From: Psychrobacillus sp. INOP01
Lineage (GTDB): Bacteria; Bacillota; Bacilli; Bacillales_A; Planococcaceae
Direction: 5' to 3'
Length of the DNA stretch: 64,000 nt
NCBI RefSeq assembly: GCF_018140925.1
Contig: NZ_CP073315.1
Coordinates: 3,286,001-3,350,000, forward strand
The notes under the pieces were generated by a model. It was not told the origin of the DNA, made no database searches, and saw only the letters and a list, made by a program, of their open reading frames with translations. Positions 362-58,067 of the stretch are shown here, one piece after another. The translations under genes were made by a program, and so were the position numbers. The number at the start of each line of letters is the position of its first letter. Positions within the stretch are counted from its first letter, which is position 1.

Positions 362-371
362 ACATTTCAAT

Positions 372-455
372 TTGCAATTCTAGCCGAGTAACTTGCGATT
401 CGTGAAATCAGATTTGCGATTTGCCCCAAACAAATTGCGATTCCCCGTTCAGGGA
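372..455. repeat. 21-bp degenerate tandem array, core TTGCGATT (4 units)
   Basis: Four consecutive units start at 372, 393, 414 and 435, exactly 21 bp apart. Each begins TTGC(A/G)ATT; the remaining 13 bp differ. There is no coding frame with a ribosome binding site. The array lies between the terminator at 331-361 and the ilvD control region. Confidence 0.75.
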
Positions 456-12108: not shown

Positions 12109-12135
12109 GATGTACAGAAATGGAAAAACTGTAAT

Positions 12136-12324
12136 GGTGCGAGAATGTTTACGAAAGTTGCGTAAAAGAGCTACGATGTTGCGCATACGTCTCCTGATGT
12201 TGCGAAAACAGGGGACATTGTTGTGTATATGGCATAGTAAGTTGCGCAAACCAAAAACGTTGTGCATATGCGACTTTATGTTGCACAAAATGATAATGCT
12301 GCGCCAATGTGTTTAAATGTGGCG
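12136..12324. repeat. 21-bp degenerate tandem array, core GTTGCG (about 9 units)
   Basis: Unit starts at 12136, 12157, 12178, 12199, 12220, 12241, 12262, 12280, 12298 and 12319. Spacing is 21 bp except two units of 18 bp. Only the first 5-6 bases (GTTGCG/GTTGTG/GCTGCG) are conserved. Because 21 and 18 are multiples of three, the stretch stays open as a heptad-repeat peptide frame (MLRxxxx), but the only start lies in the operon terminator with no ribosome binding site, so I treat it as non-coding repeat. Confidence 0.75.
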
Positions 12325-13366: not shown

Positions 13367-14158
13367 TTATAATGCCTTCAGCATACCGCCATCGACTACT
13401 AAACTTTGGCCAGTCATATACGTATTTGCTTCGGAACATAGAAATGCGATGATATTCGCAAATTCTGCTGGTTCTCCGTATCTTCCAATCGGAATTAATT
13501 GCTTGAATCCTTCCCTAACTTCCTCTATGGATACTTCTTTTTTATCAGCAGCTATTTGGTCTAACTCTGTGACACGATCTGTTTGGATTCGACCTGGACC
13601 TACTGTATTGATTAATATGTTGTTTCCTGCGTATTCTCTAGCAATACTTTTCGACAATCCAACCATCCCTGATCTGAATGTATTCGACAGGATTAGACCG
13701 TCAAGCACCTCTTTAGTGGATGACGAAGAAATATTGACGATTCTTCCGAAATTTTGTTGTTTCATATGTGGAAGAGCCAGTCGAATTGTGCGAATATAGC
13801 TAAGCAGATTTTTTTCAAATGCTACTCCCCAGTCTTCATCAGTCACCTGTGCAAATCCACCAGCTACTGGGCCGCCAACATTATTCACTAAAATATCAAT
13901 GCCACCAAGCTTTTCTTTTGCCTCGTTAAATAGCTGTTCAATATCGCTATTTTTTGTCATATCACAAATTGTGTAATACACTTCCTGGTTTCCGCTATTT
14001 GATTTTATTTCCTCAAGAGTTACTTGAAGTTCTTCTTCATTTCTACTAGATATCATTACTTTTGCGCCTTCTTTTGCAAATTGAAGGGCGGTTGCTTTCC
14101 CTAATCCTTTACTAGATGCTGTCACAATTACTCGTTTATTTTTTAAGCCTAAGTCCAT
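13367..14158 (-). CDS. short-chain dehydrogenase/reductase
   Basis: 263 residues. The NAD(P) motif is degenerate near residue 12 (TASSKGLGKA in place of TGxxxGxG). NNVGGP is the NNAG equivalent. The catalytic Ser is in ISSSSTKEVL. The usual Tyr of YxxxK is not present: the segment reads NTFRSGMVGLSKSIAREY, with Phe in the Tyr position and the Lys position changed. SDRs of this subgroup (B. subtilis YkvO/YtkK-like) are poorly characterised. The start at 14158 (MDLGLKNKR) is chosen for its AAGGAAGG site; the longer frame has none. Substrate unknown. Confidence 0.85.
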   Translation of the reverse strand: MDLGLKNKRVIVTASSKGLGKATALQFAKEGAKVMISSRNEEELQVTLEEIKSNSGNQEVYYTICDMTKNSDIEQLFNEAKEKLGGIDILVNNVGGPVAGGFAQVTDEDWGVAFEKNLLSYIRTIRLALPHMKQQNFGRIVNISSSSTKEVLDGLILSNTFRSGMVGLSKSIAREYAGNNILINTVGPGRIQTDRVTELDQIAADKKEVSIEEVREGFKQLIPIGRYGEPAEFANIIAFLCSEANTYMTGQSLVVDGGMLKAL

Positions 14159-27026: not shown

Positions 27027-28337
27027 TTGAGAAAACAGTCTAAATGGATGCTACGAATTATGGCGATAGCTACTACAGGAGCACTTTTAATAACGACTCC
27101 AAGTGCTTTTGCGAATACCTTAGATGATTTAAAAAACGAACAAAAACAATTAGAGCAAAAGAAAAACACTATTGACTCAACTATTAAAGAAACAAAAGGT
27201 AAGATTGATCAAAATGTATCAAAAATTGATCAAATTATGGCGCAAATTAAAGAGTTAGATACTAAAATTATTAACACTGAAGCACAGATTTCTGAAGTGT
27301 TAAATCAAATAAAATTAACAACAACTGAAATTGAAAAGTTACGTGCTTCTATAAACGAGCTTGAGAGAAAAATTGAAGAACGTGATGAACTATTAAAAGA
27401 ACGTATTCGTGCGGTTCAAGTAAGTGGAGGTTCTGTTAGTTACTTAGATGTATTATTAGGGGCAAATAGCTTCATCGATTTCATCGACCGCTTTTCTGCT
27501 GTTAATACATTGATGGAGGCAGACCGTACCATCTTAAAAGAACAAGCAGATGATAAAGAAAAATTAGAAGAGCAACAGGCTAGCCTAGAGAAAAAACTAC
27601 AACAGCAGGAAGATAGTAAAGATGAGCTTGTTAGTTTAAAAGCATCTTTAGATACTCAAAAGGCATCAAAAGGTAATTTAGTGGATCAGTTAGAAGTAGA
27701 ACAAGCAAAATTGATCAATCAAAAAGAAGTATTAGAAACGGAATATGACGAAATTCTAAACTTAAGTCAAGAAACGCAAAATAAAATTGTTGCTGAACAA
27801 AAAAGATTAGCCGAAGTTGCTAGAAAAGCAGCAGAAGAAAAGAAACGTAAAGAAGAGGAAGAAAGAAAACGTCAGCAAGCAGCGAGTGGTGGTTCTTCTT
27901 CATCCATTCCAAATGTTTCTGCTGGTTCTTGGACAAAACCCGCCTCTGGACGATTCACTTCTGGATACGGTAGTAGAACTCATCCGATTCATGGGGTAGT
28001 AAAAACCCATTATGGTATTGATATAGCTAATAGTACTGGTACACCAGTATTATCTGCTGCCGATGGTGTAATTTCTTATGCTGCTCCGCTTAGCACATAC
28101 GGAAATGTTATCATGGTGACACATTCCATTGATGGTCAAATCTTCACTTCTTTATATGCGCATCTAAGCAGTATTAAAGTAAGTGTTGGACAAGTTGTAT
28201 CGAAAGGGCAGATTATCGGTGCCATTGGTACTACTGGTAATTCGACTGGACCTCATTTACATTTTGAGATACATGTTGGAAACTGGGAAGGTATGGCCAA
28301 AAACTCTGTTAACCCATTGAGATATATTTCCCTATAA
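27027..28337 (+). CDS. EnvC-like coiled-coil M23 peptidoglycan hydrolase
   Basis: 436 residues from TTG at 27027 (GAAGGGAGC upstream). Signal peptide about 1-30 ending SAFANT. A long coiled coil covers about 32-255, then a Lys/Glu/Arg-rich linker and a Ser/Gly tract. A LytM/M23 domain covers about 300-430 with zinc ligands in the HYGID motif (about 330) and GPHLHFEIH (about 408). Immediately downstream of ftsEX, so probably the hydrolase partner it activates. B. subtilis uses the NlpC/P60 protein CwlO encoded elsewhere. All M23 metal ligands seem present, so unlike E. coli EnvC it may itself be catalytic. Confidence 0.9.
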   Translation: MRKQSKWMLRIMAIATTGALLITTPSAFANTLDDLKNEQKQLEQKKNTIDSTIKETKGKIDQNVSKIDQIMAQIKELDTKIINTEAQISEVLNQIKLTTTEIEKLRASINELERKIEERDELLKERIRAVQVSGGSVSYLDVLLGANSFIDFIDRFSAVNTLMEADRTILKEQADDKEKLEEQQASLEKKLQQQEDSKDELVSLKASLDTQKASKGNLVDQLEVEQAKLINQKEVLETEYDEILNLSQETQNKIVAEQKRLAEVARKAAEEKKRKEEEERKRQQAASGGSSSSIPNVSAGSWTKPASGRFTSGYGSRTHPIHGVVKTHYGIDIANSTGTPVLSAADGVISYAAPLSTYGNVIMVTHSIDGQIFTSLYAHLSSIKVSVGQVVSKGQIIGAIGTTGNSTGPHLHFEIHVGNWEGMAKNSVNPLRYISL

Positions 28338-28384: not shown

Positions 28385-28445
28385 TTAGTAAGAGTTTCGA
28401 TTATAATGCATAATAAAAACCTAGATAATAGTAGAGGGTAATACT

Positions 28446-28860
28446 ATGATTTCCGTTTTACGCGGACGCTTTCCGTGGACAAGGCCGAGCCTCCTCGCTT
28501 TGCTGCGGGGTCTCGACTTTCTCGCTGTTCCCGCAGGAGTCACCGCGTTACACTTCAATCAATGGGTGAGCAGATCTTAACTTTATAATTGAACTGGTTT
28601 AGTATTTAATAAACGATGATTAAAAAGAGTTAATCAAAGTGGAAGGTAATTAAAGAGTGGCAGTAATACTATGATTTCCGTTTCACGCGGACGAGGCCGA
28701 GCCTCCTCGCTTTGCTGCGGGATCTCGACTTTCTCGCTGCTCCCGCAGGAGTCGCCGCGTTACACTCCAATCAATGAGTGAGTAGATCTTAATTTTATAA
28801 TTGAACTGGTTTAGTATTTTAAAAACGATGATTAAAAAGAGCTAATAAAGATTGAAGTAA
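28446..28860. repeat. two tandem 225-bp units of the GC-rich element (copies B and C)
   Basis: Both units begin ATGATTTCCGTTT (28446 and 28671, 225 bp apart). They contain GCCGAGCCTCCTCGCTTTGCTGCGGG and CCCGCAGGAGTC, and end CAATCAATG(A/G)GTGAG followed by an AT-rich tail with AACGATGATTAAAAAGAG. The second copy lacks about 13 bp of the first block. The unit length equals that at 36494-36943, which lies in the opposite orientation. Confidence 0.8.
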
Positions 28861-29099
28861 CACATTCGATAAACTAATCTGTAGGGTGAGGCAAGCACAT
28901 ATTCGTATAGATAGTACCTCAATGGAGAAATCTATACCTTAATTACTAGTTTCTTGCTTTGTCACGACCAATACTTGCGCTTACTGGTCGTTTGCTTGCG
29001 GAACGGAAAATTTGCTCATTAATTGTTGGCAACTTATCTACTACCAAATTAAGGACACATAACTTTAGAAATTCAATTCTGTGTCATCGGCGGTAAATA

Positions 29100-29213
29100 G
29101 GATGCGCGCCTTCCAAGCCGCATGAGCGCGAAGAATGAGACTTCAAAAGGGATGAAGGAGCACAAGCGATCATCCTTGAAGGCTCGTGCGTAGCGTGCGG
29201 CAAGCGCACATCC
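29100..29213. repeat. long hairpin element, copy 1
   Basis: GGATGCGCGC at 29100-29109 pairs with GCGCACATCC at 29204-29213 (one mismatch), with inner pairing CGCATGAGC / GCTCGTGCG. Further copies are at 29429-29543 and 29737-29851. Confidence 0.7.
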
Positions 29214-29428
29214 GATTAGAAAGTTTCTATATGGAGAAATCTTTGCCTTATGATCGGTTTCTTGCTGTGGTACGACCGATACTTGCGCTTACTAGTCGTT
29301 TACTTGCTCTCAATGCAGAATTACTTGCGGAAAGGAAAATTTACCTATTTATTTTTGGCATCTTATCTACTACCAATGTAAGGACACATAATTTTAGAAA
29401 TTCAATTCTGTGTCATCGGCGGTAAATA

Positions 29429-29543
29429 GGATGTGCGCCTTCCAAGCCGCATGAGCGCGAAGAAGGAGACTTCAAAAGGGATGAAGGAGCGATTGCGACA
29501 CATCCTTGAAGGCTCATGCGTAGCGTGAGGCAAGCGCACATCC
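29429..29543. repeat. long hairpin element, copy 2
   Basis: GGATGTGCGC (29429-29438) pairs perfectly with GCGCACATCC (29534-29543). Inner CGCATGAGC / GCTCATGCG also pairs. The loop region carries GACTTCAAAAGGGATGAAGG. Confidence 0.75.
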
Positions 29544-29736
29544 GATTTGAAAGTTTTAATATGGAGAAATCTTTGCCTTATGATTAGTTACTTACTTTGG
29601 TACGTTGGATATTTGCGTTTATGCAGAATTACTTGCGGAACGGAAAATTTGTCTATTAATTGTTGGCATCTTATCTACTAACAATGTAAGGACACATAAT
29701 TTTAGAAATTCAATTCTGTGTTATCTACTGTAAATA

Positions 29737-29851
29737 GGATGTGTGCCTTCCATGCCGCTAGATCGCGAAGAATGAGACTTCAAAAGGGATGAAGGAGCAC
29801 AAGCGACACATCCTTGAAGGCTCATGCGTAGCGTGCGGCAAGCGCACATCC
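29737..29851. repeat. long hairpin element, copy 3
   Basis: GGATGTGTGC (29737-29746) pairs with GCGCACATCC (29842-29851) with a G-U pair. The inner left arm is diverged (CCGCTAGATC), so this copy is decaying. Confidence 0.65.
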
Positions 29852-29895
29852 GATTAGAAAGTACCTCAATGAATAAATCTCTACCTTATAATCAG

Positions 29896-30000
29896 TTACT
29901 TGCTTTGGTAGAATGGATATATGCGTTCATGCCGATTTTACTTGCCATACTATATTAATTATTTCCGCTTATTCTTCATTTACTTGCTCAAGTTAATAAT
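29896..30000. repeat. 21-bp array, core TTACTTGC (5 units), in the partial fourth unit
   Basis: Units at 29896, 29917, 29938, 29959 and 29980, exactly 21 bp each. Units 1, 3 and 5 begin TTACTTGC; the even ones begin ATATATGC and TTATTTCC. No hairpin follows, so the fourth large repeat is truncated. Confidence 0.7.
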
Positions 30001-30175
30001 GTATGTGTCTAAAGGAATATTTCACCATTTTTCATTAACTAGTATCGATTTCAATTTCAAAGTTTCCTTAAGTCACTACATAGCCACATTTTTAGCTCAT
30101 TTAATTCGTATTTAATGCAATAGATAACATATAATAAGGGCAGTGAAATATTATAGTACCAGTAGGAGGTATAAT

Positions 30176-30754
30176 ATGAAGAAAAAAATTATTGGGCTGT
30201 TAGTTATAGCTGCATTAGTAGCAATCGCAACAATATCCTTTGTAAGAGATAATATTGATGAGCAAGAAGCATTTGCAGGTGAGCAAATGGGTACAGATCT
30301 TGCGAACAATCCTGCGAATGAAGGTTTAGGTCAAGGAAATACCGCACCTAACTTTACACTAACTACTTTAGAAGGTGAGGAAGTCACACTCGCTGATTAT
30401 AAAGGAAAGAAAGTAGTGTTAAATTTCTGGGCAACCTGGTGTCCTCCTTGTAAGGCAGAGATGCCACACATGCAAAACTATTACGAAGATATGGCAGAAA
30501 AAGAAAATGTAGAAATTCTAGCTGTCAATTTGACAAGTACTGATGTTGGACTGGACAAAGTGAAAGCGTTTCAAGAAGATTATGCCCTTAGTTTTCCTAT
30601 TCCTTTAGATGAGGAAGGGATTGTTGGGGAGACCTATCAGGCGATTACGATACCTACTACTTATATGATAGATACGACAGGAACTATTCAAAATAAGATT
30701 GTTGGACCGATGGATGAGCAAATGTTAACAGACTATATTAGTAATTTAAAATAA
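30176..30754 (+). CDS. TlpA/ResA-like membrane-anchored thiol-disulfide oxidoreductase
   Basis: 192 residues. Signal-anchor about 3-24, then a thioredoxin-fold domain about 55-190 with active site WCPPC in NFWATWCPPCKAEMPH and the cis-Pro region TIPTTYMID. ResA-type proteins reduce apo-cytochrome c or sporulation proteins on the outer face of the membrane; cccB lies in the same window but is not linked transcriptionally. ATG at 30176 is chosen for AGTAGGAGG 5-6 nt upstream; the frame is open to 30143 without a site. Confidence 0.87.
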   Translation: MKKKIIGLLVIAALVAIATISFVRDNIDEQEAFAGEQMGTDLANNPANEGLGQGNTAPNFTLTTLEGEEVTLADYKGKKVVLNFWATWCPPCKAEMPHMQNYYEDMAEKENVEILAVNLTSTDVGLDKVKAFQEDYALSFPIPLDEEGIVGETYQAITIPTTYMIDTTGTIQNKIVGPMDEQMLTDYISNLK

Positions 30755-36493: not shown

Positions 36494-36718
36494 TGATTGA
36501 AGTGAAAGGCGGCGACTCCAGCGGGAACAACGAGTCCAGGTGAGAATCCTTAGGAGGCTCACGGACCGCCCGCGGAAAGCGTCCGGCTGTAACGGAAATC
36601 ACAGAGTTAATTCTCTATAATAATTTTAGATTTATTATTACGATTTAAACTTTTCATAATCATCGTTTTTATAATACAAAATCTAGTCAATATAAAAGTT
36701 AATATCTACTCACTCAAT
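36494..36718. repeat. 225-bp unit (copy D), inverted relative to copies B/C
   Basis: Starts TGATTGAAGTGAAAGGCGGC, contains GCGGAAAGCGTCC and AACGGAAATC, and ends in an AT-rich tail with CATAATCATCG. By eye identical base for base to the next unit. The remaining 36183-36493 holds degraded pieces of the same tail and nothing else I recognise. Confidence 0.9.
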
Positions 36719-36943
36719 TGATTGAAGTGAAAGGCGGCGACTCCAGCGGGAACAACGAGTCCAGGTGAGAATCCTTAGGAGGCTCACGGACCGCCCGCGG
36801 AAAGCGTCCGGCTGTAACGGAAATCACAGAGTTAATTCTCTATAATAATTTTAGATTTATTATTACGATTTAAACTTTTCATAATCATCGTTTTTATAAT
36901 ACAAAATCTAGTCAATATAAAAGTTAATATCTACTCACTCAAT
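36719..36943. repeat. 225-bp unit (copy E), identical to copy D
   Basis: Exact direct repeat of 36494-36718 with no spacer. Perfect identity indicates a recent duplication or gene conversion. Confidence 0.9.
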
Positions 36944-37065
36944 TGATTGAAGTGAAAGGCGGCGACTCCAGCGGGAACAGCGTGTCCAGGTGAGACTCCT
37001 TAGGAGGCTCACGGACCACCCGCGGAAAGCGTCCGCCTGCAACGGAAATCACAGAGTTAATTCAC
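36944..37065. repeat. partial third unit (copy F), diverged
   Basis: Repeats the first ~120 bp of the unit with scattered substitutions (AGCGTGTCC for AACGAGTCC, CCACCC for CCGCCC, CGCCTGCAAC for CGGCTGTAAC), then ends shortly before addB. Confidence 0.85.
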
Positions 37066-57799: not shown

Positions 57800-57825
57800 A
57801 AAGAGTTCAATCAGAACAGCAAGCT

Positions 57826-58067
57826 CTCTCGTATAGCGGTGGATGCCTCTCGTATATGTGCGATTCTCTCTCGGATAGCCAGTAATCACTCTCGTACAAG
57901 GCGAGCTATCTCGTATAGCCGTGGATGCCTCTTGTATATGTGCGATTCTCTCTCGGATAGCCAGTAATCACTCTCGTACAAGGCAAGCTCTCTCGTATAG
58001 CAGTCGATGTCTCTTGTATATGTGCGATTTTCTCTCGGATAGCCTGTAATCGCTCTCGCGCAAGAGA
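57826..58067. repeat. 21-bp tandem array, core CTCTCGTATA (12 units in 3 super-repeats)
   Basis: Units start at 57826, 57847, 57868, 57889, 57910, 57929, 57950, 57971, 57990, 58011, 58032 and 58053. Spacing is 21 bp apart from two 19-bp units. Each starts CTC(T)(C/T)(C/T)G. Groups of four distinct units repeat three times (84, 80 and about 78 bp), the groups being far more alike than units within a group. No ribosome binding site or stable frame; non-coding. Confidence 0.88.

Follow-up and report, generated by a model that had tools for sequence, protein, structure and literature searches.

The window analysed here is the whole stretch of 64,000 nucleotides of Psychrobacillus sp. INOP01 at G000:C1:3286001-3350000, on a chromosome of 4.30 Mb represented by a single contig; genomes are given below as G numbers, G000 being INOP01, and loci as L numbers. 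A gap of 1.8 kb, extending from the gene of a putative EnvC-like peptidase (27027-28337) to a putative ResA-like gene (30176-30754), houses a nested repeat. The putative CtpA-like gene at 30820-32241 matches its orthologs at 96% (P. psychrodurans) and 94% (P. psychrotolerans), which places the window in Psychrobacillus; all three gene labels come from inspection of the sequence. The first-pass annotation of this DNA gave unit lengths of 309, 330 and 308 bp; three units of these lengths do stand in tandem, and a partial fourth unit begins at 29873. That annotation placed the repeat at 28923-30000, where it is indeed present, but its 3' limit lies at about 30028. TRF independently found a period of 308 bp with 3.0 copies and 84% matches over 28995-29946. 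The features are as follows.

28926-29234, plus strand: unit 1, 309 bp, two modules, tail, link and hairpin
28950-29018, plus strand: array of unit 1, octamer starts 28950, 28971 and 28992 (tail)
29054-29085, no strand: inverted repeat GACACA...TGTGTC of unit 1
29099-29217, plus strand: hairpin copy 1
29235-29564, plus strand: unit 2, 330 bp, three modules, tail, link and hairpin
29258-29347, plus strand: array of unit 2, octamer starts 29258, 29279, 29300 ("extra" module) and 29321 (tail)
29383-29414, no strand: inverted repeat of unit 2
29428-29547, plus strand: hairpin copy 2
29565-29872, plus strand: unit 3, 308 bp, a 21-bp module, a 20-bp hybrid module, tail, link and hairpin
29588-29655, plus strand: array of unit 3, octamer starts 29588, 29609 (20 bp, hybrid) and 29629 (tail)
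29691-29722, no strand: inverted repeat of unit 3, ending in TGTGTT
29736-29855, plus strand: hairpin copy 3
29873-30028, plus strand: partial unit 4, five modules (29896-30000) and a degenerate tail (30001-30028), no hairpin
Array of unit 4: module starts 29896, 29917, 29938, 29959 and 29980, tail at 30001

The two levels of duplication that had been proposed, namely 21-bp modules nested in units of ~309 bp, are both real. Unit 2 equals unit 1 plus exactly one in-register module (TTACTTGCTCTCAATGCAGAA), the distance from the first module to the tail being 63 bp in unit 2 and 42 bp in unit 1, and alignment of the units showed its extra length to be a discrete 21-bp step. The net difference of 21 bp masks two mutually cancelling 1-bp indels elsewhere in the units, which is why MAFFT shows a 22-base gap together with a 1-base gap. 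In each of the three full units, 107 bp separate the tail from the hairpin. The local 309-bp tandem is most likely ordinary repeat amplification and decay, assembled from two element types. (Separately, G+C-rich repeats with CGGACGCTTTCCGCGGGC-like sequence lie at about 28440-28580, 28670-28780 and 36494-37063 of the window, with a 225-bp tandem unit at 36494; by eye, P. psychrodurans, P. psychrotolerans, OK028 and P. antarcticus have similar stretches in their ortholog gaps).

Each unit had also been credited with a hairpin of ~115 nt and a GACACA/TGTGTC inverted repeat. The hairpin is present in units 1 to 3, but measures 119-120 nt; the stretch 29085-29213 has a predicted fold of -52.8 kcal/mol (z = -4.3). 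The loci searched contain 31 de-duplicated matches to it, several of them adjoining 21-bp arrays, and the 25 near-full distinct copies among them were aligned. In this alignment, standard pairs fill 592 of the 613 cells of the consensus pairs, and a two-sided change is seen in 5 of the 25 pairs, counts that refer to a consensus predicted from the same alignment and having an energy of only -15.1 kcal/mol. Recurrent copies that keep their stem-loop are what characterizes a dispersed stem-loop repeat family, and the hairpin fits that description; Rfam searches at gathering thresholds returned no match within the 64-kb window. The inverted repeat is complete in units 1 and 2 but reads GACACA/TGTGTT in unit 3. 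We rejected it as a functional part because, by eye, it is absent from the orthologs of P. psychrodurans and P. antarcticus.

The first-pass annotation also held that the repeat directly records the gain of 21-bp modules, a direction that is probably to be reversed, since unit 4 and the units of P. psychrodurans are richer in modules. The P. psychrodurans ortholog (L125) has five units, the first two with five modules plus tail and units 3 to 5 with four plus tail, and a counterpart of the "extra" module, as judged by eye, is found in all five. The 20-bp module of unit 3 keeps ATGCAGAA, the 3' half of the "extra" module, and looks like a fusion of two modules. Module loss is simpler because unit 4 has five modules, units 1 to 3 have two, three and two, and the hybrid of unit 3 keeps the end of the "extra" module; units 1 and 3 would thus most simply have lost modules, in-register loss probably being more parsimonious than gain. 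Gain was set aside as the less parsimonious history on the alignments of units and orthologs. Aligned units differ by gaps of about 21, 42 and 63 bp. Erosion of arrays also fits another site, inspected by eye, since a solo tail occurs there in G000 and G004 and one module plus tail in G008. Arrays with eight and nine octamers exist in G005 and G008, leaving room for gain.

Identity is 85-88% among the units of the window and 88-94% among units 2 to 5 of P. psychrodurans (77-80% between its unit 1 and the sibling units), against 73-80% between the species. Because units are more alike within than between species, each set was probably amplified or homogenised within its own species. The same gap of P. 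antarcticus, OK028 and P. psychrotolerans contains arrays and hairpins that differ in order and number, and in six other Psychrobacillus loci (L127, L128, L130, L131, L132 and L134) it measures merely ~140-190 bp. We also observed that the G008 ortholog (L186:13480-14300) of the array at G000:2926574 has grown to some four or five super-units in tandem; growth at two levels, as seen in the window, recurs there at a different locus and in a different species.

The array is a dispersed element. It consists of the octamer TTACTTGC repeated every 21 bp, typically four to six times, with poorly conserved spacers and a mostly intergenic location. Exact TTACTTGC-N13-TTACTTGC pairs number 38 in the G000 genome and the reversed control pattern none, so that these pairs are not due to chance. 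A logo was built from the distinct modules in a list of 152 modules out of 36 fetched stretches: octamer positions 2-6 and 8 have 1.6-1.8 bits, values inflated by the use of the octamer to locate the modules, there is a weak K at position 9 and a weak T at position 11, and the information of the spacer is 0.03-0.09 bit at positions 13-16 and 0.03-0.31 bit at positions 17-20. Arrays frequently end in TTACTTGCGgAAcGGaAtAtTTTtccA and share the tail form TTACTTGCGgAAcGG..TTtccA; TTTATCCAT, which we take to resemble a DnaA box, is present in some tails. Among the 24 arrays of at least four octamers in fetched G000 DNA, 12 have six octamers, six have five and six have four. Successive exact TACTTGC words within 60 bp of each other in this DNA are spaced by 21 bp (57 times), 42 bp (10 times) or one of six other values (once each), so that 67 of the 73 pairs lie 21 or 42 bp apart; fetched DNA of G004, G007 and G008 gave 21 bp 61 times, 42 bp six times and 20 bp five times (n = 72). 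A three-module TACTNNC pattern with one mismatch was matched 84 times in G000, 144 in G004, 122 in G005, 162 in G007, 297 in G008 and 40 in G014, compared with 0-11 matches in the other 13 genomes of the genus and 0-7 for the reversed control.

Coding heptads (21 bp equalling seven codons) were rejected as the source of the period, because 28 of the 35 arrays detected lie clear of any ORF of at least 80 aa. The other seven overlap ORFs of 83-121 aa (five arrays), 253 aa and 600 aa, the last array probably being a false detection. At least one of the six frames is open throughout 22 of 24 arrays, little evidence either way at such short length. Many arrays are located beyond the 3' ends of genes. 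No fixed relation was found between the orientations of genes and arrays, and thus no target gene or process is indicated. A strand bias with respect to replication, hinted at by the strands of exact pairs, was abandoned since the skew signs of the fetched stretches combined with array strands give no consistent rule. The window array had no blastn matches in plasmid and phage collections. A pattern search of viral sequences returned at least 120 stretches, and among the 80 listed 79 had a single pair and one had two pairs on opposite strands; with blastn empty and these pairs taken, without a control run, as chance in a large collection, we rejected an origin from phages or plasmids.

Octamers are more conserved than spacers in one set of orthologs. 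At the array G000:2926574, 7 of 48 octamer columns are variable versus 41 of 78 spacer columns (Fisher p 2e-5), for a chosen subset of modules set in register by hand. This subset leaves out the tail of G004, which is spaced at 20 bp, the whole of G005, whose module homology is unclear, and G014; G000 modules 1-2 and G004 module 1 are absent, and G008 module 5 is taken from a later tandem copy. Comparison by eye of the array G000:2916868 with G004 gave 6 differences of 48 in octamers and 12 of 65 in spacers, a weak contrast indicating that some arrays are decaying.

The octamer is spelled differently by species, as TTACTTGC, TTACTCTC or, less sharply, TTACT[GC]GC. Genome-wide, exact TACTTGC pairs number 58 in G000, 116 in G004, 64 in G007 and 308 in G008; elsewhere in the genus there are two in G014, one each in G005 and G016, and none in the other 12 genomes. 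TACTCTC pairs are concentrated in G005 (53, with one in G013 and none in the other 17 of 19 genomes). TACTSGC pairs are spread over G014 (10), G015 (7), G005 (6), G007 and G011 (4 each) and G002, G004, G009 and G012 (1 each), with none in the other ten genomes, and thus the G014 word TTACT[GC]GC has no sharp link to a single species. The reversed control of the last pattern, CGSTCAT-N14-CGSTCAT, which has the same 21-bp period, gave one match each in G004, G013 and G015 and, unexpectedly, 49 in G001, where CGSTCAT is probably the core of another lineage-specific 21-bp array.

How the word changes could be followed at two adjacent gaps (G000 ~2933.7 and ~2935.4 kb), in each of which G000 and G005 have a tandem pair of six-octamer arrays inside syntenic alignments. 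G014 has a pair of this kind at the first gap, the second lying beyond its contig end, and G008 has a single site with three arrays, the G000 sequence between the two gaps finding no alignment there. The comparison used all four arrays of G000, four of six from G005, two of three from G008 and both from G014, leaving out two five-octamer arrays of G005 and the nine-octamer array of G008; the eight-octamer array of G005 at 13590 belongs to a different site outside the comparison. At most positions of these homologous arrays the species-specific octamer differs while the spacers remain alignable. Between G000 and G005, spacer identity is 0.71 for corresponding module positions and 0.35 for non-corresponding ones, and octamer identity is 0.95 at positions 1-5 and 8 versus 0.10 at positions 6-7. 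The latter positions read TG in 22 of 24 modules of G000, CT in 18 of 24 of G005, GG or CG in 10 of 12 of G014 and TG in 12 of 12 of G008; G000 and G008, which use the same word, are 96% identical at positions 6-7 and 68% in the spacers. Permutations of the register gave 2 in 2000, close to the share expected from the true order alone (1 in 720).

Besides such change in place there is replacement, because the matching interval of G004 and G007 is without the G000 sequence between the two sites and holds CTCTCG-class arrays instead of any TACT-class array. The G000:2926574 site has a CGACAAA array in G011, and so one interval can host different classes. Homology of CTCTCG-class with TACT-class arrays of the same interval was rejected, since five of six cross-class comparisons did not exceed the best of 200 shuffles; the exception (G004a vs G005a) scored 32, above the best shuffle of 18, an excess that may come from a terminator-like flank included in both. 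The two array sites of G000 (L111:3381-4634) appear merged in G008 (L187:1543-2106), leaving ~1.25 kb between them unaligned, as if the arrays had recombined and deleted the intervening sequence.

We scanned noncoding DNA at all periods from 14 to 30 for 7-base cores preserved in four or more modules whose spacers have diverged, and of the 20 arrays found 19 have period 21 and one has period 20. Psychrobacillus DNA sampled by coordinate (400 kb, 68 kb noncoding) contributed five arrays, all of period 21, at four places in 3 of 19 genomes; ortholog loci (173 kb) contributed ten of period 21, four of these coming from this same locus in P. psychrodurans, and the one of period 20. Other genera (654 kb, 97 kb noncoding) had four arrays of period 21 and none of another period: three belong to genomes classified in the same family, the fourth to Sporosarcina, presumably a member of it as well; other families (542 kb, 83 kb noncoding) had no array at periods 14-30. 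A looser scan that included coding DNA found, in the first 400 kb, five arrays at period 21 and four at all other periods together. It showed no excess of period 21 in 174 kb of other genera (one at 21, three at others) or in 142 kb of other families (one at 21, in an ORF, and five at others). Both scans are less biased than the earlier 54-58 clusters of period 21, many of which lie in loci fetched because they carry arrays, but several of the sampled contigs were already known for pattern matches elsewhere on them. The cores comprise TACTTGC, CTCTCG, CGACAA, GGTTGC, AATCGC, GCAACAC, GGAACTC, CGCCAA, CGGTCG and others; what is special is the period of 21 bp, not the core sequence. Three further classes occur in the window itself:

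57819-58058, plus strand: second-class array with CTCTCG core, in turn tandemly repeated in units of 82 bp
12134-12260, plus strand: third-class array with GTTGCG core, six modules, intergenic, ends approximate
370-455, plus strand: fourth-class array with TTGCGA core, four modules, intergenic, ends approximate

The 82-bp unit contains 21-bp modules with core CTCTCGTATAG and has five other partial matches in the genome. (At L137:9540, a contig of Filibacter tadaridae, we also noted 16 modules of 21 bp in alternating near-identical units, inside an ORF of 222 aa).

The nested repeat is one example of a widespread type of noncoding, 21-bp-phased array in these cold-soil bacteria. The local structure is a pile-up of two dispersed noncoding elements, the phased octamer array and the ~120-nt hairpin, which have been tandemly co-amplified in this gap; the commonest full copies of the array have five modules plus tail, and single arrays appear to lose 21-bp modules via in-register deletion. 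The octamers may be read by a sequence-specific factor on double-stranded DNA, with one site per two helical turns and hence all sites on one helix face; as the specificity of the reader drifts, resident sites would be selected to follow. Arrays would then function as multi-site binding platforms, whether architectural, silencing or titrating. We hold with moderate confidence that they are such putative phased platforms for a co-evolving DNA-binding factor, on the basis of their strict two-turn spacing, their multi-site architecture and the octamer switch at homologous arrays. Change of the reader with sites following it would be the simplest account, because positions 6-7 switch together while the spacers are kept. 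For gene conversion to do this, it would need to work on tracts of 8 bp yet spare the 13 bp next to each; recombination from array to array could contribute to homogenisation. Several findings count against the binding-platform reading: the presence of several unrelated-looking cores, which would require several factors, the weak contrast at G000:2916868, the variable orientation relative to genes, the replacement of arrays in G004 and G007, and the loose species link of TTACT[GC]GC.

The arrays may instead be remnants of mobile elements, non-autonomous ones whose octamers are sites for a transposase or recombinase and whose species words reflect bursts of different subfamilies. Dispersed copies sharing the tail described above, subfamilies with homologous flanks and the composite formed with the hairpin element would all follow. 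We nevertheless consider this origin unlikely: syntenic alignments of G000 with G005 (two sites) and with G014 (one site) either enclose the arrays or end in them, and the different octamers with alignable spacers found there point to change at resident copies, no clean insertion boundary is seen at the one other site examined, and the window array remains without match in plasmid or phage collections.

Neutral minisatellites, in which slippage makes the 21-bp repeats and mutation erodes them until the octamer is the part still uneroded, would account for solo tails and for the variable number of modules and units. They would hardly produce conserved octamers between diverged spacers with the spacing still at 21 bp, octamers changing together between species at homologous arrays, or a noncoding scan over periods 14-30 in which no other period is enriched; this explanation is accordingly quite improbable. 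Little probability also attaches to a platform acting in RNA, with transcribed arrays whose octamers are paired by a small RNA or bound by an RNA-binding protein. Change of one small RNA could shift all targets, and the position of many arrays beyond gene 3' ends would suit it, but an exact spacing of 21 nt has no reason in RNA, orientation relative to genes is not fixed and Rfam, as stated, matches nothing in the window.

To return to the phased binding platforms, a short word that changes in concert across homologous arrays, with the spacers kept, is a mark of sites co-evolving with their reader. Confirmation would make the arrays a natural system in which to follow how a DNA-binding protein shifts specificity together with its many sites in the genome, and the arrays would then point to a chromosome-associated factor in a whole bacterial family. 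A broader and rather doubtful extension is chromosome-wide addressing in the family of Psychrobacillus, whereby arrays of two-turn-phased sites serve rapidly evolving DNA-binding readers, the word is re-spelled per lineage at resident sites, and several classes coexist per genome and can take up the same intergenic interval in different species. Even if the arrays are the ends of mobile elements, they explain a notable share of the intergenic repeats seen here.

Openly accessible papers contain no description that we found of 21-bp-phased arrays in these bacteria. REP, BIME and REPIN elements come in lineage-specific classes, with RAYT denoting the REP-associated tyrosine transposase. Two reports describe them as short intergenic repeats with many copies per genome and composite arrangements (PMC2817692, PMC3116915). 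The array is also short, intergenic, many-copy and composite, but its octamer TTACTTGC is non-palindromic and runs head to tail on one strand at 21 bp, unlike a palindromic unit of 20-40 bp in paired inverted copies. Dispersed stem-loop families and bcr repeats of Bacillus are treated in the literature (PMC2267715, PMC3446304). The ~120-nt hairpin looks like an ordinary dispersed member of this kind, whereas the 21-bp array has no stem-loop.

Iterons of plasmid replication origins are several direct repeats of ~20-22 bp, phased with the helix and bound by one protein, with specificity differing between replicons; they adjoin a rep gene and an AT-rich region with DnaA boxes. Direct repetition at helix-phased spacing is common to both, but the array has many chromosomal copies and the window array is unmatched in the plasmid collection. 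With minisatellites and VNTRs the array shares tandem repeats of changing copy number; it differs in that its constant positions number only about 8 of 21, spacers having near-zero information where a minisatellite unit is alike over its whole length, and in that the period of 21 persists across different cores. CRISPR loci combine a long constant repeat with unique acquired spacers, whereas the constant part of the array is 8 bp and its spacers at the same module position are common to syntenic arrays of different species.
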